Shown here: positions 6,972-40,141 of the stretch, one piece after another | How positions within the stretch are numbered: the stretch's first letter is position 1 | Layout: every line of letters begins with the position of its first letter | DNA from: a virus | Length of the DNA: 56,258 nt | Direction: 5' to 3' (one strand) | IMG/VR virus record: IMGVR_UViG_3300046170_000034 | Coordinates: 1-56,258 of that record | Position numbers and translations under genes: made by a program | The notes under the pieces: model-generated | What the model saw: the letters and a program-made list of their open reading frames with translations, nothing else | What the model was told of the DNA's origin: nothing | Database searches by the model: none

Positions 6972-8009
6972 ATGGATAGTCGCTTTGATGCCTATGGTGA
7001 TACTTCTGCTCCCGCTGACGCTAACGATGGTTTTTCAAACGCTAGTGTGCAAGGCGGTGATAATCGTAATGATCCAGCGACAGAGCAACAGCTAGGTATT
7101 GTTCGTAACGACCAAGGTCAAGTAACCAACCCCTATGGTAACGAGGGTTTCTTTTCTCGTGTTCTAGGCATCGACCCATCAAGTATCAGCTATAATAATC
7201 TTCTTGGACAGGGCACGCTGGAAGGAATAGCAAGCCTCAATGTCGATAGGTATAACAATCCTTATGCCAGCACTAATGTCCTGAACGCCCCAGTGGGTGG
7301 AAACCAAACCGCAGGTACTCTTCGCTCTGGTGTTTCGGCTGGTGACCCAACTCGTTTTGGTGAAGTACGCGCACAACGACAGCCTATGACTGGAACTGAG
7401 ATGACAGCCAGAGGTCTAGCTTCCTTATTTGGTGGCCCGATGATGGGGCCAGCGCTTATGAGTATGCGAGATGATCCCGTGGCCATTCAAGGTAGCCAGT
7501 TTTACGACCCAAAGCTTGACCCCGAAAGTGAACTGTACGAAGGCAGCGGAATGCTGGGGTCTTTGATGGCTCCGCTTACAGGTGGTGTAACAGCTAGTGA
7601 TGTGTCGAGCAATGTTTCACCTATGATGGAAAGAGTGAGGGATATGTTCAGCACAGGCTCAGACATATCTAAGCCTAACTTGAGCGTTGATATTGGCGCT
7701 GCGGGCTTGGGTGTAGATCCAATGAAAACTTTACCCGCGTTTGGATCTGAAAGAGAAGCTTATGGAGATCGCCTGTCTAAAGATCCAGCCATAGGTGATC
7801 AAGCGTTTTTAGACTACGAACTTATGTCTCCAGCACAGATGCTTGAAGCGAGTAAGGGCTTTATGAATCCTAAAGGCTCCGAAGAGTATGATCCCAACAG
7901 GCGCAGTATCACACCCACTTTTAAGAACCCAGACTTTGATCGGGGTGGTAGGACAATGGGTCTAGAATACAGTATTCCTCTTCAAGATTTATTCAATAGA
8001 GTAGTGTGA
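6972..8009 (+). CDS. Hypothetical protein, 345 aa
   Basis: No recognised family. The protein is acidic, rich in Gly, Asp, Asn and Pro, with no membrane segment and little predicted helix; it looks like an extended or intrinsically disordered virion or assembly factor. It begins one base after the previous stop and ends one base before the next gene, so it belongs to the same late transcript between the lysis genes and the capsid genes. Confidence 0.7.
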   Translation: MDSRFDAYGDTSAPADANDGFSNASVQGGDNRNDPATEQQLGIVRNDQGQVTNPYGNEGFFSRVLGIDPSSISYNNLLGQGTLEGIASLNVDRYNNPYASTNVLNAPVGGNQTAGTLRSGVSAGDPTRFGEVRAQRQPMTGTEMTARGLASLFGGPMMGPALMSMRDDPVAIQGSQFYDPKLDPESELYEGSGMLGSLMAPLTGGVTASDVSSNVSPMMERVRDMFSTGSDISKPNLSVDIGAAGLGVDPMKTLPAFGSEREAYGDRLSKDPAIGDQAFLDYELMSPAQMLEASKGFMNPKGSEEYDPNRRSITPTFKNPDFDRGGRTMGLEYSIPLQDLFNRVV

Positions 8010-8010
8010 C

Positions 8011-8538
8011 ATGAAAATAGAAATCAAACTAATCCCTGATGGATTGGACTTATCAAAAGAAATTCAAGATGGCACTCCTGTAGACAAGATGCAGGGGGAG
8101 TGCCCCGCCGCAACTCAAGACCTAGATTTAAATCTTGAGAACAGGCAGAACGCCATTGATGAGTATGGCTATGGCCCGTTAAATCCAAACCTTGATGACA
8201 CTGGCAAGAACGATAGTTTCTGGCAGAAGATAGCGGACACATTCAATGCATCCATAGAGGCCGCAAAAGATAGTCGTTGTGGTAACTGTGCTGCTTTTAA
8301 TCTAACGTCAAAGATAAAAGATTGCATTGCTGAAGGCATCGGCATGAATGATGGGACAGATCCATATGCATCTGTGGATGCGGGAGACATAGGCTACTGT
8401 CAATTCATAAAGTTCAAGTGCGCTTCCATGCGTGTTTGTAATGCTTGGGTTTCTGGTGGGCCAATAACTGATAGAAAGATAAATGGTAATGGTAATGATT
8501 ACGCGCCTGAAGAGGCTTTTGGCGGTTCTGTTAGCTAG
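8011..8538 (+). CDS. Six-cysteine domain protein
   Basis: A 175-aa protein with an unstructured N-terminal half and a compact cysteine domain: C90-x2-C93, C105, then GYC130, C137 and C143 followed by W146 and GG. The C-x2-C ... G-Y-C-x6-C-x5-C-x-A-W layout recalls small iron-sulfur proteins of the HiPIP fold or a disulfide/zinc knuckle, but this is only a resemblance. It lies in the head gene region upstream of the co-chaperonin. Its last 44 bases overlap the 34-aa frame at 8495. Confidence 0.75.
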   Translation: MKIEIKLIPDGLDLSKEIQDGTPVDKMQGECPAATQDLDLNLENRQNAIDEYGYGPLNPNLDDTGKNDSFWQKIADTFNASIEAAKDSRCGNCAAFNLTSKIKDCIAEGIGMNDGTDPYASVDAGDIGYCQFIKFKCASMRVCNAWVSGGPITDRKINGNGNDYAPEEAFGGSVS

Positions 8539-8599
8539 AATAATTAACCCCGTCCTTAACAGATGCGACTGCCAGCCAACACATTGTGACTGTGAGTAG
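8495..8599 (+). CDS. Tiny C-x-C protein, 34 aa
   Basis: ATG at 8495 opens a 34-codon frame overlapping the end of the previous gene. It encodes a basic amphipathic or membrane-binding helix (KRLLAVLLARIINPVL) followed by a cysteine tail C-D-C-Q-P-T-H-C-D-C-E. The paired C-x-C motifs are too organised for a chance frame, and the frame fills an otherwise empty interval before the gene at 8603. A metal-binding or lipidated lysis-related peptide is possible. There is no strong SD, only translational coupling. Confidence 0.55.
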   Translation: MITRLKRLLAVLLARIINPVLNRCDCQPTHCDCE

Positions 8600-8602
8600 T
8601 TA

Positions 8603-8812
8603 ATGGATGCTATACAATTTATAACAAGGTATAAAAGAACCTTGCAGAATCGCGTGGATGACATTAGCATCTCCGTGACAAGCGGCGGAGTTTCCGATAT
8701 GGAGACTTACCGTTCTATGATAGGTGAGATTCAGGGACTTACCTATGCGTTAGATGAACTTCAAACCCTGCTAAAAAAGGATGATTATGACGAAGACCCT
8801 ATTCGTACCTGA
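8603..8812 (+). CDS. Small helical hypothetical protein, 69 aa
   Basis: A helical, acidic 69-aa protein without recognised domain: an amphipathic first helix (IQFITRYKRTLQNRVDD), a glycine turn, and a second helix (EIQGLTYALDELQTLL). Two-helix proteins of this kind just upstream of capsid genes are common in phages; the role is unknown. It overlaps the start of the GroES-like gene by 26 bases, suggesting coupled translation. Confidence 0.7.
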   Translation: MDAIQFITRYKRTLQNRVDDISISVTSGGVSDMETYRSMIGEIQGLTYALDELQTLLKKDDYDEDPIRT

Positions 8813-9221
8813 CCATATTATGCGGCAACAGCGAGCTAAGAAAAAAGCTGAAGAAGAAGCCAAACAAAAACCCCTTACAGAAAGAATCCCACAGCCAACA
8901 GGTTGGCGCATACTCGTCATGCCGTATAAAGGCAAAGACGTTTCTGAGGGCGGTGTTATCATACCAGATCAAGCAAAAGACCGAGAAGCACGGGGCACTG
9001 TTGTAGCCTATGTGGTTAAGGTTGGTCCGCTTGCGTATCAAGATCCCGACAAATTCGGTGCGGAATCCGAACCTTGGTGTAAAGAAGGTGATTGGATTTG
9101 TATTGGTCGGTATTCCGGGTCTCGCTTTAATATAGAAGGCGGTGAGGTTCGCATCATCAATGACGATGAGGTCATTGCAACCATTGTCGATCCAGACGAC
9201 ATAAAGACATACGGAGCGTAG
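8787..9221 (+). CDS. GroES-like co-chaperonin (Cpn10 family)
   Basis: Probable lid protein that works with the host GroEL to fold capsid proteins. From the ATG at 8787 it is 144 aa. After a lysine-rich N-terminal extension of about 40 residues comes the Cpn10 barrel: GWRILVMPYK, SEGGVIIPD in the mobile-loop region, ARGTVVAYVVKVGP, the acidic WCKEGDWICIG strand and the end IINDDEVIATI. Bacterial GroES is about 97 aa, so this version is enlarged by the N-terminal extension and an inserted loop. Phage-encoded co-chaperonins (T4 gp31, marine phages) support capsid assembly, which fits its place just before scaffold and capsid. Confidence 0.85.
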   Translation: MTKTLFVPDHIMRQQRAKKKAEEEAKQKPLTERIPQPTGWRILVMPYKGKDVSEGGVIIPDQAKDREARGTVVAYVVKVGPLAYQDPDKFGAESEPWCKEGDWICIGRYSGSRFNIEGGEVRIINDDEVIATIVDPDDIKTYGA

Positions 9222-17364: not shown

Positions 17365-18231
17365 ATGGCACTTGTTCTTAGAGATCGTGTAAAAGAAACG
17401 ACTACAACCACAGGAACTGGCACATATACATTAGCTGGGGCAATGACTGGGTTTGAGTCTTTTGGTAGCGTGGGTAACAGTAACACCACCTATTATGGAT
17501 GTAGTGATGGCACCAACTTTGAGGTTGGTATCGGCACATACACGGCTTCTGGAACTACGCTGGCAAGAACCGCGATTCTGCAATCCAGTAACAGCGACAA
17601 CGCTGTTAGCTGGGGATCTGGCACGAAGACTATTTTCTGCACACTCCCTGCGGAAAAGATGTCGTTCCTTGATGCGAGTGGTAACTTAGTAGCCGCTAAC
17701 GGTAGCGCGTTGACAGCACTCAACGCCAGTAACATAGCCTCTGGTACGGTTGCTAATGCGAGACTTGATCAACAACTACAGGATGTGGCGGGTCTGGCTG
17801 TCACAAACGGTAACTTTGTAGTTGGTGATGGCAGTAACTTTGTGGCGGAGTCTGGCGCAACAGCTAGAACAAGTTTGGGTTTAGGAACTGCGGCTGTTTT
17901 AGACACAGGTATATCAAACACCAATGTACCTAAGTTTACATCTGGCGTGGCGGATGATGACTTTTTACGTGTAAACGGCACAGATATAGAGGGTAGATCT
18001 GCGGCGGAAGTGCTGTCAGATATTGGTGGTCAGGCATCACTGACATTTGGCATATCTAACACCAACGCGGTGAAGATAGACAGTGCATCGGTTGCAGACG
18101 ATGAGTACGCAAGATTTACATCAAGTGGGCTAGAAAGTAGATCCACATCAGAAGTGCTGTCAGATATTGGTGGTACAACAGCTACTGATGCGGCTAACGA
18201 GGCGACAGCTTTAGCGATAGCCTTGGGCTAA
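17365..18231 (+). CDS. Tail fibre protein with internal repeats
   Basis: A 288-aa low-charge, Ser/Thr/Gly-rich fibre. A block TVANARLDQQLQDVAGLAV is nearly identical to one in the fibre at 26016, and the C-terminal half contains two copies of a repeat (ADDDFLRVNGTDIEGRS... / ADDEYARFTSSGLESRS..., each ending EVLSDIGG). Such repeats are typical of trimeric fibre shafts. One base separates it from the previous stop. Confidence 0.8.
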   Translation: MALVLRDRVKETTTTTGTGTYTLAGAMTGFESFGSVGNSNTTYYGCSDGTNFEVGIGTYTASGTTLARTAILQSSNSDNAVSWGSGTKTIFCTLPAEKMSFLDASGNLVAANGSALTALNASNIASGTVANARLDQQLQDVAGLAVTNGNFVVGDGSNFVAESGATARTSLGLGTAAVLDTGISNTNVPKFTSGVADDDFLRVNGTDIEGRSAAEVLSDIGGQASLTFGISNTNAVKIDSASVADDEYARFTSSGLESRSTSEVLSDIGGTTATDAANEATALAIALG

Positions 18232-18243
18232 AGGAGAAGAAGA

Positions 18244-18591
18244 ATGGCTAACACTTTTAAGGTGATCACGAAGGCTGGCGTAACATCTCTGGATGTTATC
18301 TATACTGCCGCTGGTAGCACCACGACGGTTGTACTTGGTTTGATATTGGGTAACACAACCACGAGTCAGATTACATCAACTGTAACATTAAACACGGACA
18401 CAGCTAATCGGTCAGGGGCAAACAACGAAGCCAACCAAGCTGTTGAACTTGTGACTAACGCACCTATCCCAGCGGCTTCTTCATTGGAAATGCTTGCAGG
18501 TAACAAGGTAGTGCTTGAAACAACCGATGAAATTAAAGTCTCAGCTACAGGTGCTGTTGACGTAGCCTTATCAGTGATGGAGATAACCTAA
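18244..18591 (+). CDS. Small fibre-associated structural protein
   Basis: A 115-aa beta-rich protein, Thr/Ala/Val-rich, in the fibre region. SD GGAGAAGA precedes the ATG at 18244 and its stop overlaps the next start. No family name; probably a virion surface component. Confidence 0.65.
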   Translation: MANTFKVITKAGVTSLDVIYTAAGSTTTVVLGLILGNTTTSQITSTVTLNTDTANRSGANNEANQAVELVTNAPIPAASSLEMLAGNKVVLETTDEIKVSATGAVDVALSVMEIT

Positions 18592-19040
18592 TGCCGTATC
18601 TTGGTGAGAAAGTCCCCGCTAACTTTCAATCCGTCCCGGCAGTTCAGAGGTTCAACGGTGACGGTAGCGATACAACATTTACACTAAACACAACCGTTTC
18701 ATCCGTGCAGGATGTTTTGGTTTCTGTGGATGGTGTTATTCAGGATAGCGCGGCGTACACAATACCGGATGGCGTGACGCTGACATTTACTGCCGCCCCT
18801 TCCTCTGGCACGGGTAATATCTTTGTTAATTACAATGCACCGCAGGTAGGCACTGTTACACCAGCCGCCGAGAACAAAGGCAACTTTAAGGCAGGTGGTT
18901 TATTCCGTACCAACGCACAAACCCTTACAGCAAATACAACCATCCTTGCTACAGAAAACGCCAATGTAACTGGTCCGTTTACTGTGGCTAGTGGTGTTAC
19001 ATTAACCGTTGAAAGCGGTGGGACATTGGTGACGCTATGA
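18591..19040 (+). CDS. Tail fibre module protein (MPYLG type)
   Basis: A 149-aa protein starting MPYLGEKVPANFQ and carrying a T7 gp17-like beta domain (GDGSDTTFTLNTTVSSVQDVLVSVDG) with a Gly/Val-rich end. It is related in N-terminal style to the protein at 22491 (MPYIGK...), so this fibre unit seems duplicated. Its end overlaps the next start by 4 nt. Confidence 0.75.
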   Translation: MPYLGEKVPANFQSVPAVQRFNGDGSDTTFTLNTTVSSVQDVLVSVDGVIQDSAAYTIPDGVTLTFTAAPSSGTGNIFVNYNAPQVGTVTPAAENKGNFKAGGLFRTNAQTLTANTTILATENANVTGPFTVASGVTLTVESGGTLVTL

Positions 19041-19483
19041 GTACGTTATTAGCAGATACAATTAGAAAAACTGGTGGCAGTTCTGGCGTGGATATCAGAA
19101 TTAAAAATAATTCTGTGTATGAGTCAGAAGGCGGCACAAGTGTTACTCAAAATATGGTGCAAAGTCTAAACAAGGGCTGGGCATCTGTACAAAAATATTC
19201 TTCTAATATTAGCGTTTTTGACTCACTCAATGTTTCGTCAGGAGTCGATGATGGCGTGGGTCACACTACCCTAAATTGGTCAAACAATATGTCAGCGGCT
19301 GGGCATTATGCGGCGGGTGGAATGTCATCTGACCAAAATTATATGTGTGCTAATCAAGGTAGAACTGCGGCGGCAGGAACTGCTCTTACTACTTCCAGTG
19401 GTGCATTTTCTACAGTTAGTGATGCTGGCGCAGACAAAGATTCAAATGTGAATCTTATGGTGATTATGGGAGACCTAGCATGA
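19037..19483 (+). CDS. Small fibre cassette, copy A (ends in GDLA)
   Basis: A 148-aa protein of a local family. Members share a start of the type M-x-x-L-x-x-D-T-I, a core like K-G-W-A ... F-D-S-L-N-V-S-S-G-x-D-D-G-x-G, a variable distal part, and the ending G-D-L-A. This copy is the most divergent of the five (others at 20391, 22949, 23306, 23728). Likely a fibre tip or a fibre-decorating module; function unproven. Its stop overlaps the next start (ATGA). Confidence 0.75.
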   Translation: MSTLLADTIRKTGGSSGVDIRIKNNSVYESEGGTSVTQNMVQSLNKGWASVQKYSSNISVFDSLNVSSGVDDGVGHTTLNWSNNMSAAGHYAAGGMSSDQNYMCANQGRTAAAGTALTTSSGAFSTVSDAGADKDSNVNLMVIMGDLA

Positions 19484-20391
19484 GTGAAGTAAAGACAAAT
19501 AAAATCAGCAGTCTTGCTAGTAACAACAACATCACGATTGACCCTGATGGCACTGGCAACACGATTGTTGCGTCGGGCAACGTGGGCATCGGGACTGCAA
19601 CACCATCCAGTTACAACAGTGGTGCAGATGATTTAGTTCTAGCCACCACAGGCGCAACTGGTATCACTATTGCTTCTGGCACAAGCAACAATGGTTCTTT
19701 GTTTTTTGCTGATGGTACTTCTGGTGCAGACCAATATCGCGGTTATATCCAGTATGAGCAAACCAATAATGCTATGGCTTTTGGAACTAACGGTGCTGAA
19801 CGGATGCGTATTGATTCGGGAGGCAATTTACTTATCGGACGCACAAATACAAATAACAACAATGGTGGTCATTATATTACAAGTGGTTATGCTTATCTTG
19901 AACGAAATAATGACTTACCACTTTACTTAAACAGGTTTGGTAGTGACGGAACGATTGCTCAATTCCGTAGGCAAGATTCAGTTGTTGGAAGCATTTCTGT
20001 AACTAGTTCAGGCACTGCCTTTAACACATCCTCAGACTACCGCCTCAAAGAAAATGTTACTTATGATTGGGACGCAACAACAAGACTAAAGCAACTAAAG
20101 CCAGCCCGTTTTAACTTCATTGTTAATGCAGATACCACAGTCGATGGCTTTCTTGCACATGAAGTCTCAAGCATAATTCCCGAAGCGATTAGTGGTACTA
20201 AAGATGAAGTTGAAGTGTGGAAGGACGGTGAAGAACTGCCCGATGGCGTTTCGGCTGGCGATAACAAGCTAGATGCTGATGGCAATACTATTCCTGTAAT
20301 GCAGGGGATAGACCAGTCCAAACTCGTCCCATTGTTGGTCAAGACCATCCAAGAATTAGAAGCGCGTATCACCGCACTGGAGGCTGAATAA
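19480..20391 (+). CDS. Tail fibre with peptidase S74 intramolecular chaperone
   Basis: A 303-aa trimeric fibre whose C-terminal domain (about 183-303) is the endosialidase-type chaperone (S74): SSDYRLK at 184-190 gives the Ser185-Asp186 cleavage pair, followed by FLAHEVSSIIPEAISG, GIDQSKLVPLLVKTIQELEARI. The chaperone assembles the trimer and cuts itself off. The N-terminus has GNVGIGTATPS and ERMRIDSGGN repeats common to such fibres. A second, paralogous S74 fibre is at 21655. Confidence 0.88.
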   Translation: MSEVKTNKISSLASNNNITIDPDGTGNTIVASGNVGIGTATPSSYNSGADDLVLATTGATGITIASGTSNNGSLFFADGTSGADQYRGYIQYEQTNNAMAFGTNGAERMRIDSGGNLLIGRTNTNNNNGGHYITSGYAYLERNNDLPLYLNRFGSDGTIAQFRRQDSVVGSISVTSSGTAFNTSSDYRLKENVTYDWDATTRLKQLKPARFNFIVNADTTVDGFLAHEVSSIIPEAISGTKDEVEVWKDGEELPDGVSAGDNKLDADGNTIPVMQGIDQSKLVPLLVKTIQELEARITALEAE

Positions 20392-20792
20392 TGGCACTAG
20401 GTAAAATCAAAGCAGATACCCTAGAACACAGCACCGCAGGGTCGCTGGATACAAAGTTCGTTGTAGAAGGTAGTGCGAAGGCTTGGTTAAACCTGAATGG
20501 TACAGGAACAATAGCTATTCGTGACAGCTTCAATGTAAGTGGTGTTTCGGATGGCGGCACTGGAAACTATACGACCAGTTTCACCGCATCTTTTAGCAAC
20601 GCTAATTACTCACATAGTCATACAAACATAACAAACGATGGTCAGTACGGTTTTACAATAGACAGTTCTTTCGCACAGGCGACGGGGTCTGTTTTGCAAA
20701 GAAACGGCTACTGGTCTGGTGTTTCAGGTGAAAACGGGTCTAGCGGCGATTCTTTGTATTTCAATATTCAAGAGTTTGGAGACCTAGCATAA
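20391..20792 (+). CDS. Small fibre cassette, copy B (ends in GDLA)
   Basis: A 133-aa member of the local family: start with I-K-A-D-T-L, core AKAWLNLNGTGTIAIRDSFN then V-S-G-V-S-D-G-G-T-G-N-Y, variable segment, ending E-F-G-D-L-A. TAATG overlap on both ends. Placed between the first S74 fibre and two assembly-type genes. Confidence 0.78.
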   Translation: MALGKIKADTLEHSTAGSLDTKFVVEGSAKAWLNLNGTGTIAIRDSFNVSGVSDGGTGNYTTSFTASFSNANYSHSHTNITNDGQYGFTIDSSFAQATGSVLQRNGYWSGVSGENGSSGDSLYFNIQEFGDLA

Positions 20793-21262
20793 TGCAGACA
20801 CCTGAGTTTCAAGGCACACACCTATTCGACCGACTATGTTGGGCAAAGGAAAACCTAGAAGGTCATCAGTCTGACTATCGCGTAGTGTATGAGGACAGTG
20901 TAGATGAATGTGCAAAGATACTGGTTCCTGACCCTAACTGGATGGCGTGTGCGCTACAGGGCGGTATCCTGCCTCCTGTCGAAGTGTATTGGGAGTTAGC
21001 AAAGGATGAGGCACAACCAGACTTCAAGAAGCATACTCGTGGCTACCTGTTACATGACACCAAGCCTATTGATGCTTTAACCGAAGAACAGGCGATTGAA
21101 TACTTAATTATGAAAGACTGCCCACAATCCGTATGGAAAGAGTGGGATAGCGGCAATAAGCCAAAACTGGTAATATGCCGTAAGGAACAGCTTCCAGCGA
21201 CTCGTGAGTGGCGCAATGCTTGGAAGATCACTGAAGAACTAGCCACAGAACAAGCTGCCTAA
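20792..21262 (+). CDS. Putative tail fibre assembly protein
   Basis: A 156-aa soluble, acidic protein, not fibre-like in composition: FDRLCWAKENLEGHQSDYR, NWMACALQGGILPPVEVYW and near the end REWRNAWK. The R-E-W-R-N-A-W type motif and the position amid fibres suggest a chaperone or fibre assembly factor, but the family is uncertain. Confidence 0.65.
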   Translation: MQTPEFQGTHLFDRLCWAKENLEGHQSDYRVVYEDSVDECAKILVPDPNWMACALQGGILPPVEVYWELAKDEAQPDFKKHTRGYLLHDTKPIDALTEEQAIEYLIMKDCPQSVWKEWDSGNKPKLVICRKEQLPATREWRNAWKITEELATEQAA

Positions 21263-21273
21263 AGGAGAAACCA

Positions 21274-21642
21274 ATGGCAACATATATCGTAGACAAGGAC
21301 GGGAACCAGATCGATGCTTCCACGGCTACCGTTCCAACAGACCGTCACTTTCGCGGTGCGTGGTCATTGAGCGGAACAGTTATATCCGAGGATATGGATG
21401 CCGCTAAAACTATCTTCCGTGACAAAATCCGTGAAGTGCGCACATCACTGCTTGCAGCAGAGGACGTAGTGTACATGAAGGCACTTGAAGCTGACGATAC
21501 TTCTGCAAAGTCAGCCTCTGTAGCCAAGAAGAATGCACTACGCAACGCACCAGCGGCATCGGCTATTACAAGTGCTGACACAATTGCTAAATTAAAAGCA
21601 GCTTGGGATACGGCTGTACTTGGCGATAGCCCATACGCATAA
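21274..21642 (+). CDS. Putative tail fibre assembly or chaperone protein
   Basis: A 122-aa helical protein with DRHFRGAWSLSGTVISEDMD, a helix KTIFRDKIREVRTSLLAAED and the end LRNAPAAS..I..A.TIA. The pattern 'I-R-E-x-R ... L-R-N-A-P' is typical of phage fibre assembly proteins. SD AAGGAGA. Located directly upstream of the second S74 fibre. Confidence 0.65.
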   Translation: MATYIVDKDGNQIDASTATVPTDRHFRGAWSLSGTVISEDMDAAKTIFRDKIREVRTSLLAAEDVVYMKALEADDTSAKSASVAKKNALRNAPAASAITSADTIAKLKAAWDTAVLGDSPYA

Positions 21643-21654
21643 GGGAGATAGACT

Positions 21655-22491
21655 GTGGCGTTAACTAAAGTAGGAAAAGAAGGTGTAACTGGAATTTCTA
21701 ATTCTAGTAATGCTACAGCTATTACCATTGATTCGTCAGAGAATGTGGGAATTGGAAAATCCACTAGCATTGCAGATAGAGTGCATATTGAAAAATCTGG
21801 TGCAAACTGTTTGCTATCAGTCGCAAGAACCAGCGATGGTGCGGCTGGTCGCTTGGTCATGCAACACACTGACACTGTTGGTGCTTTACAAACTACAGGC
21901 TCTGTGCCTTTACTATTTGGTACTGCTGATACTGAACGGATGCGTATTTTAGCCGATGGTAGAACTACTATAGGCCATAATGCGGCTATCAACATTTCTA
22001 TTCTTGGAATTTCAAATAGAAATGCCACCAGTGACAGAATGTTTGCTGTTCATAATGCAGGTGGAACAAGCGGTTACTTCAACCAGATAGCATTTCGGAA
22101 TAACGCTGACAGCGCAACTATCGGTGAAATTGTAAGAGTTAATGACGCATCTGTTTCTTACAACACAACATCAGACTACAGGCTTAAAACCGCAGTCAAC
22201 TACACTTGGGATGCAACCACACGACTAAAGCAACTAAAGCCAGCTAGGTTTGAGTGGATTGTTGATGGCGATGATGCTGTTCCTGTGGACGGGTTCTTAG
22301 CGCATGAAGCGCAGACCGTTGTACCAGAGGCCGTTACTGGCACACACAATGAAGTTGATGACGATGGTAACGCAGTCATGCAAGGGATAGACCAATCCAA
22401 AATCGTCCCACTGCTGGTCAAGAGCCTACAGGAAGCCATCACTAAGATTGAAACGCTTGAGACTAAAGTTCAAGCACTAGAGGACGCATAA
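21655..22491 (+). CDS. Second tail fibre with peptidase S74 domain
   Basis: A 278-aa fibre starting with GTG at 21655 (SD GGGAGA). The C-terminal S74 chaperone has TSDYRLK at 172-178 (Ser173-Asp174), GFLAHEAQTVVPEAVTG and GIDQSKIVPLLVKSLQEAI. It is a clear paralogue of the fibre at 19480 in the C-terminal half, with a different N-terminal shaft. Two such fibres in one phage suggest alternative receptor binding. Confidence 0.88.
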   Translation: MALTKVGKEGVTGISNSSNATAITIDSSENVGIGKSTSIADRVHIEKSGANCLLSVARTSDGAAGRLVMQHTDTVGALQTTGSVPLLFGTADTERMRILADGRTTIGHNAAINISILGISNRNATSDRMFAVHNAGGTSGYFNQIAFRNNADSATIGEIVRVNDASVSYNTTSDYRLKTAVNYTWDATTRLKQLKPARFEWIVDGDDAVPVDGFLAHEAQTVVPEAVTGTHNEVDDDGNAVMQGIDQSKIVPLLVKSLQEAITKIETLETKVQALEDA

Positions 22492-22952
22492 TGCCCTACA
22501 TAGGTAAATCCCCAGAGTTCGGTGTACGTAACCGTTTCGTATATCAGGCCACAGCAGGGCAGACTAGCTTCTCTGGTAGTGATGCTGACTCTAAGGTACT
22601 TACCTATCAAGATGGTCTGTACATGGACGTGTATCAGAACGGTGTACTACTCAAGCCGGGAACAGACTACACTGCCACTACAGGCACAACAGTCGTACTG
22701 GTCACAGGTGCATCATCAGGTGACGTAGTTGAGATGGTAGCCTACGATGTGTTCTCTGTAGCCAACAGCTACACAGTGACAGAGAGTGACACACGCTACC
22801 CATTCAAAGGTAACAACAGCATCATCCGCTTGAATGGTCAAAGCATAACGGCAGACATTACTATTGATGCAGATGAGAACGGCGTGAGTGCAGGTCCGAT
22901 TACGCAGGACAATGCCACCGTCACTGTTAACGGATATTGGAGTATCGTATGA
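22491..22952 (+). CDS. Tail fibre module protein (MPYIG type)
   Basis: A 153-aa beta-rich protein starting MPYIGKSPEFGVRNRFVYQA and containing GLYMDVYQNGVLLKPGTDYT, a widespread marine phage fibre motif. It is related in design to the protein at 18591. ATGA overlap with the broken cassette that follows. Confidence 0.78.
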   Translation: MPYIGKSPEFGVRNRFVYQATAGQTSFSGSDADSKVLTYQDGLYMDVYQNGVLLKPGTDYTATTGTTVVLVTGASSGDVVEMVAYDVFSVANSYTVTESDTRYPFKGNNSIIRLNGQSITADITIDADENGVSAGPITQDNATVTVNGYWSIV

Positions 22953-23306
22953 CCAGCGTATTGAATGTAGATAGCATTGCGGCAAAGGACGGTACATCTG
23001 CTGTAACGCTAGACTAAGCAGACTGCGGCTAAAGCATTTGTAGAAGCAAACGATGCCGCCGCATTTTCAAAAAGTTTTAACATTTCTGCTGGTTCAGACG
23101 ATGGAACAGGAGACTATAGCTACAGTTTTATTAATAATTTAGACAGTGCAGATATGGTGGCAAATATTACTTGTGCGCAAAATGCTAACGCCATAGGTGT
23201 TAACAACGGCAGGGCAGCAGGTTCTTTTGATGTTAAGATGTTTACTGATGCTGGTTCGCTTGTAGACAGAGACCATAGCTGTGTAATTCACGGAGACCTT
23301 GCATAA
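22949..23306 (+). pseudogene. Small fibre cassette, copy C, single-base frame break
   Basis: ATG at 22949 gives 22 codons (MTSVLNVDSIAAKDG...) and stops at TAA 23015-23017. The +1 frame continues without stops from 23016 (KQTAAKAFVEAND...) through SKSFNISAGSDDGTGDY to the family ending H-G-D-L-A at 23306. The joined product of about 118 aa matches the other cassettes throughout, so one extra base near 23013 separates two halves of one gene. Real decay, assembly error and recoding are all possible. Confidence 0.75.
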
Positions 23307-23728
23307 TGGCTAGTCAACTCAAAGTAGATACAATCACAGGAGTAACCACGGCTGGTTCTATTAGCGTGACAGGTGAAGGCAACTCAACCACAACTAATCT
23401 GCAACAGGGATTAACGAAGGCGTGGAATCACTTTGATGGTACTGGCACTGTTGCTATAGATAATTCGTTTAACGTTAGTTCTTTGATAGATTCCACTACA
23501 GGTCAATATGCTAGTGCTTTCACTAATAATATGTCATCAACACAATACCCAAACACAGGTCATTCAAGGCATGATGGTGGTGTTAATGCTTTGTTTTCTA
23601 CCTCTAACAAAGACGATTACCCGCCAATTACAAGCAGTTGTGGGATAGATAGTTTTTCTTCAGATGGAAATCAAAACCAAGTAGATAGTGACCAGATGTC
23701 GCAAGTTATTCACGGAGACCTAGCATAA
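23306..23728 (+). CDS. Small fibre cassette, copy D (ends in GDLA)
   Basis: A 140-aa cassette: SQLKVDTITG start, core KAWNHFDGTGTVAIDNSFNV, variable distal part rich in Ser/Asn/Asp, ending V-I-H-G-D-L-A like copy C. TAATG overlaps on both sides. Confidence 0.8.
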   Translation: MASQLKVDTITGVTTAGSISVTGEGNSTTTNLQQGLTKAWNHFDGTGTVAIDNSFNVSSLIDSTTGQYASAFTNNMSSTQYPNTGHSRHDGGVNALFSTSNKDDYPPITSSCGIDSFSSDGNQNQVDSDQMSQVIHGDLA

Positions 23729-24099
23729 TGGCAAGCGAACTTAGAGTAAACACATTAAAGGATGCCTCTGGTAACAACAGCATTGCTACTAGCTTTGTTG
23801 CAGGGGGCAGTGCGAAGGCTTGGGTGAACTTTGATGGTACTGCATCTGGTGCGGCGGCAAGAGATTCATTTAATGTTTCTGGGATGACAGATAATGGTAC
23901 AGGCGACTACACTGTCACATATTCATCTGCTTTATCAGACGCTAATTATTCCACACCATCATCCGCATACAACAGATTTGTAGGTGTTACTGGCGCGGCT
24001 AGACAGACTGCATCTGCTTGTAGACTAGACTGTATTACCACCAGCGCAAATTCAGATTACTCTGTAATCAATGTCGGTATGTTAGGAGACCTCGCATGA
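23728..24099 (+). CDS. Small fibre cassette, copy E (ends in GDLA)
   Basis: A 123-aa cassette: ASELRVNTLKD start, core AKAWVNFDGTASGAAARDSF then N-V-S-G-M-T-D-N-G-T-G-D-Y-T, ending M-L-G-D-L-A. Most similar in its core to copy B. Overlaps the next start (ATGA). Confidence 0.8.
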   Translation: MASELRVNTLKDASGNNSIATSFVAGGSAKAWVNFDGTASGAAARDSFNVSGMTDNGTGDYTVTYSSALSDANYSTPSSAYNRFVGVTGAARQTASACRLDCITTSANSDYSVINVGMLGDLA

Positions 24100-25133
24100 G
24101 TAAAGCCGCAGAACTAGCCGCACTGATTGGTTCGCAGTCGGCGTTGTCGGACAGGAACCTGATTATCAACGGCGCTATGCAGGTGGCGCAACGTGGTACG
24201 TCAAGTACAGGATTTGTAGGTGCGTCTAGCTATTTAACTGTTGATAGATTTAAGTTAGAAAACGGAAGTAGCGGAACTTTCACAGTTACACAAGCTACTG
24301 ATGCCCCTACAGGATTTGCAAACAGCCTCAAGTTTGATTGCACAACAGCAGATGCAAGCCCTGATTATTTTTTAATTGTGCATCGTATGGAAGGGCAAAA
24401 CCTTCAACATCTACAAAAGGGGACATCTTCTGCCAAAAAGACTACATTATCTTTTCATGTGAAGTCTAACAAAACAGGGACGTATCAAGTCAATCTTAGG
24501 GATGTGGATAATAGCCGACTCATAGGTGCTACTTATTCTATATCTTCTGCTAATACTTGGGAGAAAAAGATTGTAACCTTTGCTGGGGATACGTCAGGAG
24601 TGTTAGGTAATGATAATGGTAATTCTCTGTCTCTTGAGTGGTGGCTTGCTTCTGGTTCAACCTACAATAGCGGCGCAGTTCCAACAGCTTGGGAAGCCAT
24701 AGCTAACGGCGACAGAGCCGCAGGGTTAAATGTAGCCATTGGTGCAAGCACAGATGATGAATTTCTTATCACTGGCGTCCAGCTTGAAATCGGCGAACAG
24801 GCCACGTTTTTTGAACATCGGTCGTTTGGCGATGAACTACAACTCTGTAAACGCTATTTTCAAGTACATGATGATATGCAACTTAGAGGAAATCCTGACG
24901 GGGGCTTTGAAAGGATTGAAATATACTGTCCGTTAGGTGTCTCAATGAGAGCAAATCCGTCAAGAGGAGTGATAACAGAAGGAAACAGCACTAACATTCG
25001 TAGTTCTACTACCACATATTCAGGTTTTGTTTTAGCAAATAGAACGGCTGGATGCACTCTTTCTTTAGAGTCAAACAGTGCTGGATTAGCGTCTTTTGAC
25101 AATAGGACTGAATCACTGGATGCGGAGTTATAA
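24096..25133 (+). CDS. Tail fibre with carbohydrate-binding-like beta-sandwich
   Basis: A 345-aa fibre or receptor-binding protein. It begins with a short helix and then a domain recurrent in marine phage fibres: NLIINGAMQVAQRGTSS, YLTVDRFKLENGSSG, EGQNLQHLQKGTSSAKKTTL, VKSNKTGTYQVNLRD, LSLEWWLASGS, FLITGVQLEIGEQATFFEHR. The jelly-roll-like pattern resembles carbohydrate-binding modules. Probably contacts the host surface. Confidence 0.82.
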   Translation: MSKAAELAALIGSQSALSDRNLIINGAMQVAQRGTSSTGFVGASSYLTVDRFKLENGSSGTFTVTQATDAPTGFANSLKFDCTTADASPDYFLIVHRMEGQNLQHLQKGTSSAKKTTLSFHVKSNKTGTYQVNLRDVDNSRLIGATYSISSANTWEKKIVTFAGDTSGVLGNDNGNSLSLEWWLASGSTYNSGAVPTAWEAIANGDRAAGLNVAIGASTDDEFLITGVQLEIGEQATFFEHRSFGDELQLCKRYFQVHDDMQLRGNPDGGFERIEIYCPLGVSMRANPSRGVITEGNSTNIRSSTTTYSGFVLANRTAGCTLSLESNSAGLASFDNRTESLDAEL

Positions 25134-25300
25134 TGATGAATATTACATCAGCAAAATATTTAAATAACGATAGTAAAGTAATTATTATTGTTGCAGAGGG
25201 GCAAAAATTGTTTGTCCCACTAGACCCAGCCAACCGCCACTACGCAGAAATCATGCGTCAGGTGGACGCTGGCGAGTTGACTATAGCCGATGCTGACTGA
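25133..25300 (+). CDS. Tiny tail-associated protein, 55 aa
   Basis: A 55-aa protein fully coupled to its neighbours (TAATG before, TGATG after). After KVIIIVAEGQKLFVPLDPAN comes R-H-Y-A-E-I-M-R-Q-V-D-A-G-E-L, a motif widely found in short proteins encoded among phage tail fibres. Function unknown; conservation of the motif makes this a real gene despite its size. Confidence 0.75.
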   Translation: MMNITSAKYLNNDSKVIIIVAEGQKLFVPLDPANRHYAEIMRQVDAGELTIADAD

Positions 25301-26015
25301 TGTTTGGTGAACTGGCATTATCTGAAAGAGCATTAGCCGCGCAAGGAATTATAGAGTTCGGCGTAGCTGAGATGATCGGTACGTCTAGTAAGGCGTCCGT
25401 GGCATCTGGTATAATGTCCGGTGTTATAGATGCGTCGGCCAACTTTACGCAGTCTACCAACGCGATGTTTATAGCTAGTAATACCTCTACACAGATAGCT
25501 AGCTTTACCCAAAGCACTGATGCTTTGAGGGCAAGAACAGCAACCGCAGAACTTGAGTCTGTGTTTGTACAGTCTTCAACCGCTGCGCTAGTTCGCAAGC
25601 GGCGTATCAACACAGATCGCTAGCTTTACGCAATCGGCAGATGTCTCGTTGATTGCATCGGGCATAGCTGAGATGAGCTTTAACTTTACGCAGTCATCGG
25701 CGGCTATTAATATTCGCATCCGGTGTGGTTATACAGGACTTTAACTTTACTCAGTCCGTTACTCCATCTGTAGTATTTTCTACATCTGTAGATATAGAGT
25801 CATTATTTACTCAGTCTGTTCTTGGTGGGTTGCTTGAATTTGGTGTGGCAGAAATGAGCGCATCATTTATAATGACCGCAGATGGTCGCATATTATGGGA
25901 ACAGATTATACCTACTGGCACCGAAAACTGGACGACAATTTCGCATACAGGTGATACATGGACACCAATCAACGCTAGTGGTACAATCGAGCAATGGACG
26001 GAAAAGGTGGTCTAA
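25300..26015 (+). pseudogene. FTQS-repeat fibre protein broken by two frame changes
   Basis: One ancestral gene of about 238 aa seen in three frames. Frame A (25300-25623) and the following frames share repeats of the type A/N-x-F-T-Q-S spaced by about 20 residues, seven or so in total. Frame A to B changes near C25594 and frame B to C near C25715; skipping these single bases restores VASGVSTQIASFTQS and INIASGVVIQDFNFTQS. The C-terminus (ILWEQIIPTGTENWTTISHT, GTIEQWTEKVV) is a known type of marine phage fibre ending. Both breaks sit at the same place of the repeat (TTCGCA). Confidence 0.75.
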
Positions 26016-38176: not shown

Positions 38177-40141
38177 TTATCCGACCTCACCCCAGTTGTC
38201 GCCCATTTCTGCATCGACCTTGAACGGAACCTTCAGATCAGGGACACATGTCTCCATGATCTCGACAATCCGTTCGGCTTGCCCCGGATCTTCGACATTG
38301 AAACACAGTTCATCATGCACTGTTAGCATCGGTAGCAGTCCCTCGGCGTAGCAATCGACCATCGCCTTCTTTGTCTGGTCAGCACTCGAACCTTGGATCA
38401 GCTTGTTCAACGCCTTGTATGTAAAGGCCGGGCGAATCCTGCCTACACCACCGTATTCCTTTGCCGCCGCTTCTAGTGGCAGTGGCTTGGTGTATCCATA
38501 TGACTTAGGTTCCCATAGATCAAAGCGGCACTTGCGACCAAGCATAGTGCGGATGTGACCGAACTTCTCTGCTTGTTTCGCAGCCATGTCAGCAATGCCC
38601 TTAACGAACGGAACCTTCTCATGGTAGTTGGCAAGTAGTACCTTTGCTTCTTCCTCGGTTATGTCCATGACACCAGCAAGTTTCTTCCTGCCCATGCCGT
38701 ACATGATACCAAGGTTAACAGTCTTGGCTTCCTTACGAGTAATGCCTGCAAGATCTGCTACCATCTGGTGAAAGTCTGCATCATCGTTCTTGTACAGTTC
38801 AACAACCTCGTTGATTGCCGGATGCGGATTCTTTATACTGGCGCAGTAATGTGCCAGCCAGCGAGGCTCCTGTGAGGCGTAGTCAAACGACCCCCACTTG
38901 CAACCTTCCTCTGGTATAAACAACCCACGGATCATAGCCTTTAATTCTGGATCACGGGCAGGGATCTGTTGCAGGTTTGGGTTGCTCGATGAAAAACGAC
39001 CCGTCACAGTACCGCCATCATCTGAACGAAGAGGATTAAATTCACAATGGATACGACCCTTATGCGAATGCTCAAGAATGGTTTCAATAAATGTTGTGTT
39101 GGCTTTGTTAAATTCACGAAGCTTTACTATCTTTGCCGCCAGTGGGTGATGGTGGTTAGAAAGAAACTGTTTTGTAAAGGAAGGCGCATTCGTGCCCTCT
39201 GTCCTATTGTACGGCAACCCAACGGAATCGAACGCCTTTGCTATAGATGTGGCGACCCACGGCTCAATGTAGTGCCCTGTTTCCCCTTTAATTTCCTCAA
39301 GTAGCTGAGTCTCGCGTTTCTTTAATTCCTTACGGGCGACTTGCGCTTTGTCCACATCAACACGCACACCGTTGGTACGCATGTCTAACAAGGGACGAAG
39401 TAACCCAGATTCAAGGTCGAAGATTCCAGTGACCTTATCAGCTACCATGTCTTGACGTAGCCTGTCCCAAAGCTTCAAGGTTACCGCTGCATCCTGCTCG
39501 GCATACGGACCGACAAAGTTACAAGGCATCTTCCACATCTCTGACTTAGGATTGACGCCGAAGTAGTCCGCTGCCTGTTTCAACAGCCGCTCGTTTTTGT
39601 ACTCGCCAAGATATTCGCCAGCCAATGAGTTCAGGTTGTAGTACCTACGATTCTCGTTCAAAAGTGGGGCGGCTATCATAGTGTCGATAATCGGTCCTTG
39701 AACCTCGATTCCTGCCCACCGCATCCAGCCAAGATCATACATTGCATTGTGCATAACCTTTTCGATCTTGGGTGTAGCCATCTGCTTCTTCAGCCAGTTG
39801 ACAACCTTAGACTCAGGGAAGTTTCCACCACCCTCATGTCTAACAGGGTAGTAGCCTATGAAGTCACCAGCCGCCACGGCGTAGCCAATGACGTATCCGT
39901 CATCTCGGCACCAGCCGGGACCTAACCGCATTAGATTCGGGTCTCGCGTTTCCAAGTCAATTGCTATGCGAGAGTACGCCGTTAAATCAGGGAATGACTG
40001 AGGCGGAGACCAGTCTTCTCGAACACCAGCGATAGAGTATTCTTTCATCTCTTCCGCATCTGCTACGTCGTTCTTATCCTTCATCTTCGGATACTCCTCT
40101 CGATGATCGGGATGATCTATAAAATTGTACTGATGACTCAT
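38177..40141 (-). CDS. polA: DNA polymerase I (family A) with 3'-5' exonuclease
   Basis: Replicative polymerase, 654 aa. Exonuclease motifs: IDLETRD (61-67), HNAMYDLGWM (131-140), YAEQDAAVTLKLW (213-225). Polymerase motif A is D420-Y-A-S-Q-E425-P-R; motif B KTVNLGIMYG (473-482); motif C HDE at 609-611. The residue matching E. coli Phe762 is Leu (NLGIMYG), a variant frequent in marine virioplankton. No 5'-nuclease domain. It is the last gene of the leftward replication operon. Confidence 0.96.
   Translation of the reverse strand: MSHQYNFIDHPDHREEYPKMKDKNDVADAEEMKEYSIAGVREDWSPPQSFPDLTAYSRIAIDLETRDPNLMRLGPGWCRDDGYVIGYAVAAGDFIGYYPVRHEGGGNFPESKVVNWLKKQMATPKIEKVMHNAMYDLGWMRWAGIEVQGPIIDTMIAAPLLNENRRYYNLNSLAGEYLGEYKNERLLKQAADYFGVNPKSEMWKMPCNFVGPYAEQDAAVTLKLWDRLRQDMVADKVTGIFDLESGLLRPLLDMRTNGVRVDVDKAQVARKELKKRETQLLEEIKGETGHYIEPWVATSIAKAFDSVGLPYNRTEGTNAPSFTKQFLSNHHHPLAAKIVKLREFNKANTTFIETILEHSHKGRIHCEFNPLRSDDGGTVTGRFSSSNPNLQQIPARDPELKAMIRGLFIPEEGCKWGSFDYASQEPRWLAHYCASIKNPHPAINEVVELYKNDDADFHQMVADLAGITRKEAKTVNLGIMYGMGRKKLAGVMDITEEEAKVLLANYHEKVPFVKGIADMAAKQAEKFGHIRTMLGRKCRFDLWEPKSYGYTKPLPLEAAAKEYGGVGRIRPAFTYKALNKLIQGSSADQTKKAMVDCYAEGLLPMLTVHDELCFNVEDPGQAERIVEIMETCVPDLKVPFKVDAEMGDNWGEVG

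Follow-up and report, generated by a model that had tools for sequence, protein, structure and literature searches.

The tail fibre region of the window (the whole stretch of DNA that was analysed, IMG/VR record IMGVR_UViG_3300046170_000034, 56,258 nucleotides) probably encodes an addressable multi-tip receptor-recognition array, in which the slots are fixed and the tips are exchangeable. The array is carried by a marine phage, which its tail genes suggest to be of the short-tailed type.

Fixed slots and their contents

The region was compared with a sample of about 95 related contigs, among them that of Puniceispirillum phage HMO-2011. This sample favours one lineage as part of it was fetched by similarity to the AD2 gene of the window; one search query was a consensus-like cassette sequence, and the genome search was run with G36. 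The comparison showed that the array has seven slots at fixed places, arranged around two fibre anchors of the T7 type (AD1 and AD2), and the gene order in the relatives is AD1, slots 1-3, G36, G35, slot 4, AD2, slots 5-7 and terminal fibre. The corresponding genes of the window are as follows.

18591..19040 (+): AD1, fibre anchor/adaptor 1, T7 gp17 N-terminal type (PF03906); HMO-2011 gp41, 82% identity
19037..19483 (+): slot 1, copy A, GDLA cassette (PHROG 11355), tag ~19037-19096; position of HMO-2011 gp40
19480..20391 (+): slot 2, S74 (self-cleaving chaperone) fibre (PF13884), tag MSEVKTNK
20391..20792 (+): slot 3, copy B, GDLA cassette (PHROG 11355), tag ~20391-20450; HMO-2011 gp37
20792..21262 (+): G36, conserved gene closing the first triplet; 91% identity to HMO-2011 gp36
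21274..21642 (+): G35, conserved gene weakly similar to tail assembly chaperones (PHROG 20196; Phage_tail_APC below cut-off); 73% identity to HMO-2011
21655..22491 (+): slot 4, S74 fibre (PF13884), tag MALTKV, GTG start; GDLA cassette gp34 in HMO-2011
22491..22952 (+): AD2, fibre anchor/adaptor 2, assigned by a fold match; HMO-2011 gp33, 95% identity
22949..23306 (+): slot 5, copy C, GDLA cassette with a +1 frameshift, TAA 23015-23017; intact in HMO-2011 gp32
23306..23728 (+): slot 6, copy D, GDLA cassette (PHROG 11355), tag ~23306-23365
23728..24099 (+): slot 7, copy E, GDLA cassette (PHROG 11355), tag ~23728-23787; AlphaFold2 model
24096..25133 (+): terminal fibre (FN, position 8), tag MSKAAELAALIG (PHROG 4492, tail fiber); 52% identity to HMO-2011

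A first-pass annotation had described five GDLA copies that share the core K-A-W ... F-D-G-T-G ..., are chained by ATGA/TAATG junctions and are interleaved with two S74 fibres. The core and the junctions are as described, and both S74 fibres (genes 19480 and 21655) are real, scoring above the PF13884 cut-off; in other phages, their slots are filled by GDLA cassettes. Copies A, B, D and E are intact ORFs ending in GDLA, but copy C is broken: the frame starting at 22949 stops after 22 aa at TAA 23015-23017, and the remainder (23013-23306), which ends in HGDLA, lies in the +1 frame. Copy C is the sole broken cassette among the 429 examined, and its frameshift, unless it is a rare lesion, is an error of the assembly. 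An exact scan of IMG/VR around the lesion gave no match, and the only contig that is nearly identical to the window (L086) stops at position 20946. AD1, AD2, G36, G35 and the terminal fibre belong to the same unit as the cassettes, which the annotation had not said.

The assignment of the anchors to the T7 gp17 type was made for AD1 by a sequence match to PF03906 (25.7 bits, cut-off 25.2, E 1e-5; Pfam) and for AD2 by fold alone. The AD2 model, which is of moderate quality (pLDDT 73, pTM 0.51), matched the N-terminal domains of portal-tail fibres in a fold search (best match 9efk of LME-1, E 1.6e-4). G36 is putatively involved in assembly.

The segment between AD1 and G36 (20792) contains three cassettes in 36 of the 46 contigs, and that between AD2 and the terminal fibre (24096) in 30 of the 34. 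Three cassettes also precede G36 in cyanophages and prophages, with prophage-like loci of this kind present in Methylocystaceae, Microvirga and Cohaesibacteraceae assemblies. Each complete array among the ~95 related contigs has five to seven GDLA copies, because slots 2, 4 and 6 can take other fibre families (S74, C1q and others). Slot 2 of the relatives contains a GDLA cassette, a C1q or another fibre, and the position of slot 6 in HMO-2011 is taken by a C1q fibre and a small gene. The most varied slot is slot 4, for which nine body families were found across the relatives, among them GDLA, S74, the terminal-fibre type and many others. As a separate observation, the Cohaesibacteraceae MAG contig L258 carries two cassette clusters, with three cassettes before G36 and four further on, and these mostly end in GRLA, GNLA or similar instead of GDLA.

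The GDLA ending is not due to chance, because 439 of 11,567 ORFs in 243 loci end in this way, where composition would lead one to expect 0.27, and every one of the 439 is a member of the cassette family. A translated search with copy E retrieved copies B, D, A and C with E-values of 1.7e-17, 2.7e-9, 3.0e-4 and 7.1e-4, respectively. PHROG 11355 (tail fiber protein) matches copies A, B, D and E at 4e-9 to 7e-18, and is matched by 141 of the 142 aligned cassettes; no Pfam family was found for the cassettes, nor a consistent Pfam domain across these 142. The AlphaFold2 model of copy E, based on the 142-sequence alignment (pLDDT 84.9, pTM 0.72), has an extended N-terminus, a short helix (21-27) and then strands, the last of which ends just ahead of GDLA. 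We read these strands as a predicted beta-sandwich. Viral fold matches of copy E reach E 1e-9 and include the long tail fibres of Syn5 and ACG-2014f. Taken together, the PHROG tail family, the matches to fibre-domain folds and the hypervariable distal region bear out the earlier view that these are paralogous tail fibres with strongly divergent distal parts. A PDB fold search with the tip returned nothing at E < 0.001 (best match, Cyanophage Pam1 tailspike, E 0.07), a sequence search of the tip against solved structures gave no convincing relative, and the lectin folds SLL-2 and Helix aspersa agglutinin were set aside as very weak matches (E 1.9-3.8).

Slot tags and the GDLA end

To each cassette a slot was assigned from its neighbouring genes, and the tags were not used for this. 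In 300 cassettes, the N-terminal ~20 residues are slot-specific, with an identity of 0.623 within a slot versus 0.192 between slots. The corresponding values are 0.391 and 0.370 for the core, and 0.123 and 0.121 for the distal part. By tag, 95% of the cassettes have their nearest neighbour in their own slot, versus a permuted maximum of 28%. Moreover, unrelated bodies in one slot (2, 4 or 6) have a tag identity of 0.439, and related bodies in different slots one of 0.111, with a permuted maximum of 0.216. This tag/body test is conservative, because single linkage placed the GDLA and S74 bodies in a common family. Contig L243 was left out of it and kept in the 300-cassette comparison; a pair with 100% identity within this contig was discarded as a counting artefact, one ORF having been assigned to two slots. 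Third-base identity in the tags (0.58-0.67) is barely above that of control genes (0.53-0.54), so selection on the tags is mainly at the protein level. In the freshwater cyanophages Mel-JY33 and Nsp-JY18, tag identities are 0.82, 0.77 and 0.86 on the diagonal versus 0.14-0.36 off it, and the non-tag parts have an identity of 0.29-0.36 throughout. These two phages replicate the slot-tag pattern independently.

The end of the cassettes has a second function: it is in part the ribosome-binding site of the next gene, as follows from the codon bias of its Gly and Asp residues and from the spacing of the GGAGA motif. The sites in the window are as follows.

23714..23728 (+): one such embedded site, GGAGAC in the G-D codons before the next ATG
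19469, 20778, 23292 and 24085 (+): further GGAGAC sites, G-D codons

GGA encodes the terminal Gly in 284 of 288 cases and GAC the terminal Asp in 266 of 288, versus 24% and 32%, respectively, elsewhere in the same genes. GGAGA is present in 374 of 394 junctions between a cassette and the next gene, at a median of 9 nt upstream of the next start, and about 94% of the cassettes (410 of 437) have a 1- or 4-base start overlap with their neighbour. Unrelated bodies in the same slots bring their own GGAGG, GAGGA or GGAGA. The Leu residue of GDLA is constant and its codon is variable, which suggests an additional protein constraint on this end.

In the mechanism that we propose, AD1 and AD2, two T7-type adaptors, would anchor the array to the tail. 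Each small fibre protein begins with a slot-specific peptide of ~10-20 residues, followed by a predicted short helix and an interchangeable tip, a predicted beta-sandwich with a hypervariable distal part. Because the tag is conserved, we suggest that it would dock each subunit at a separate site on a conserved fibre or tail part. The tip probably binds the host receptor, and the small fibres would be trimeric components of the virion.

It is also conceivable that the modules are stacked head to tail and form one or two long fibres, in which the tag of each module binds the GDLA end of the preceding one; the array would then be a fragmented form of the single long fibre of other phages. In the corresponding region, the HMO-2011-type Roseobacter phages CRP-1 and CRP-235 do have a single long fibre (1081 and 1420 aa) that contains an AD2-like domain, and the terminal gene of the window has its match in the C-terminal portion of a fibre family of 1096 aa (PHROG 4492, positions 775-1075 of 1096). 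However, docking on a conserved component is likelier than stacking on a neighbour, as the tag of a slot stays the same when the protein before it switches from GDLA to S74, C1q or another family; the body of the neighbour is apparently not recognised. In addition, the fixation of the G-D codons extends to their synonymous sites, so that the ribosome-binding site partly explains the constant end. We consider head-to-tail stacking unlikely. That each anchor recurrently has three cassettes with different tags could further indicate heterotrimeric tips, with three paralogues on one trimeric anchor forming three receptor-binding faces per tip that are reshuffled by cassette exchange; this arrangement seems quite improbable to us.

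The tags might also have no role in docking, being a translation-start sequence or leftover homology that merely forms a recombination border beside the ribosome-binding site. They are indeed located exactly at translation starts, and they form islands of DNA similarity between relatives. Yet their third-base identity is close to the level of ordinary conserved genes and much lower than full conservation of the DNA would give, their amino acids persist ahead of unrelated bodies, and the same tag rule holds in the very distant cyanophages. We regard this explanation as very unlikely, and retain docking by the tag as the preferred reading.

Exchange of cassettes

Distal domains that are 88-100% identical are found in different slots behind different tags, which is direct evidence of cassette shuffling. 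The breakpoints of these exchanges are at aa 22-45, and the DNA downstream is 92-97% identical to the end; the DNA similarity of exchanged pairs extends from a few residues upstream of K-A-W to the stop codon. When the window is compared with its relatives, islands of similarity are present at the junctions and similarity vanishes in between. Tips are swapped between slots and between phages, in the proposed mechanism by recombination at two shared borders, the first located just upstream of K-A-W and the second being the GGAGACCTNGCA stretch, which encodes GDLA and doubles as the ribosome-binding site of the next gene.

The first-pass annotation had instead viewed the array as expandable, its cassettes multiplying by tandem duplication and then diverging. 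All cassettes are homologous, and two contigs (L193 and L195) have four cassettes instead of three after AD1, as might be expected in such a case. However, the number of slots is nearly constant, and there is no sign of recent duplication, because the paralogues of a single phage resemble each other no more than they resemble those of other phages (core identity 0.376 vs 0.370). Both expansions carry the tags of other slots (6, 7 and 8), which moved as a block and do not represent a fresh duplication. What varies is the content of the slots, and the variation corresponds to exchange. Tandem duplication is therefore largely refuted for recent evolution and, most unlikely as an account of the present array, can describe only the ancient origin of the slots. 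Likewise, the earlier expectation that an expandable array would not have the same fixed set without variation is borne out for content and fails for position, as the positions are fixed and the content varies. We observed separately that in L193 and L195, at ~7053-8574, the tags of slots 6 and 7 and of the terminal fibre lie behind AD1, with a GDLA body behind the terminal-fibre tag.

An invertible tail fibre segment of the Mu/P1 type was rejected, as no inverted repeats of at least 20 nt are present in 18200-25400. The 27 window ORFs scanned with Pfam did not include a reverse transcriptase gene, as would be part of a diversity-generating retroelement.

Distribution of the array and comparison with known systems

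The window was compared with 28 kb of HMO-2011 (14-42 kb of NC_021864), and within this stretch only the array genes are closely related. The tail adaptors share 26% identity, for two adjoining genes the match is limited to short stretches, and the capsid genes of the window have no match in these 28 kb. The window has an SU10-type portal and adaptor, and HMO-2011 a P22-type coat. The array therefore appears to move between phages whose backbones differ. Elsewhere in the window we noted a gene for a GroES-like co-chaperonin (PHROG 3188; 8781-9221) in the head region, and a C-5 cytosine DNA methylase gene (PF00145; 50089-51174, - strand). A primase related to the AEP domain of TOTE conflict systems (PF22548; 42326-43867, - strand) is located near Pam3 gp34- and gp33-like genes and a family A DNA polymerase (38177-40141).

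The gp28-gp41 cluster of HMO-2011 (NC_021864) has the same slot order and tags, with AD1, G36, G35 and AD2 being 73-95% identical to those of the window. It differs in that slots 2, 4 and 6 have other bodies, and its genes are annotated as separate tail fibre and hypothetical genes. The PHROG 11355 entry reads only "tail fiber protein" and does not mention slot tags or the exchange of cassettes. It is already known that HMO-2011 has tail fibre genes and that host-recognition genes vary in marine phages. In work on metaviromic islands of marine phages, such genes, including C1q fibres, form a variable part of the genome (PMC3909814); that study describes under-recruiting genes and no addressed multi-slot array, and its text does not mention HMO-2011. 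In the literature searched, which did not cover the original HMO-2011 paper, we found no description of fixed slots, slot tags or movement of tips.

The branched complex of the Ackermannviridae (TSP1-4) combines several receptor-binding proteins that have a conserved N-terminal docking part and an exchangeable C-terminal part; up to four tailspikes are joined by gp10-like XD domains, and homologous recombination takes place at their conserved 5' ends (PMC11414711). A conserved N-terminus followed by an exchangeable, putatively receptor-binding part is also found in the array of the window, as a pattern in the sequences. The array differs from that complex in having seven or eight small proteins, tags of ~20 residues and tips that move between slots, and in using mostly one tip family common to many slots. 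A Pfam search of 142 cassettes did not find gp10-like XD domains, and the N-terminus of CBA120 TSP4 turned up solely as a weak fold match to AD2. The array would work like the Ackermannviridae complex, but we do not classify it as a member because gp10-like domains were not found.

Host-recognition equipment seems to travel as one island between otherwise different phages, judged from the 28 kb compared with HMO-2011. For annotators, the slot tags provide a rule by which such genes, many of them now called hypothetical, can be recognised and put in order. Phages of the HMO-2011 type reportedly rank with the most abundant ones in the ocean, and closely related members infect bacteria of two different orders (PMC6918029). 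Tips that change at fixed positions would give a simple genetic route to host switching, with the particle unchanged.
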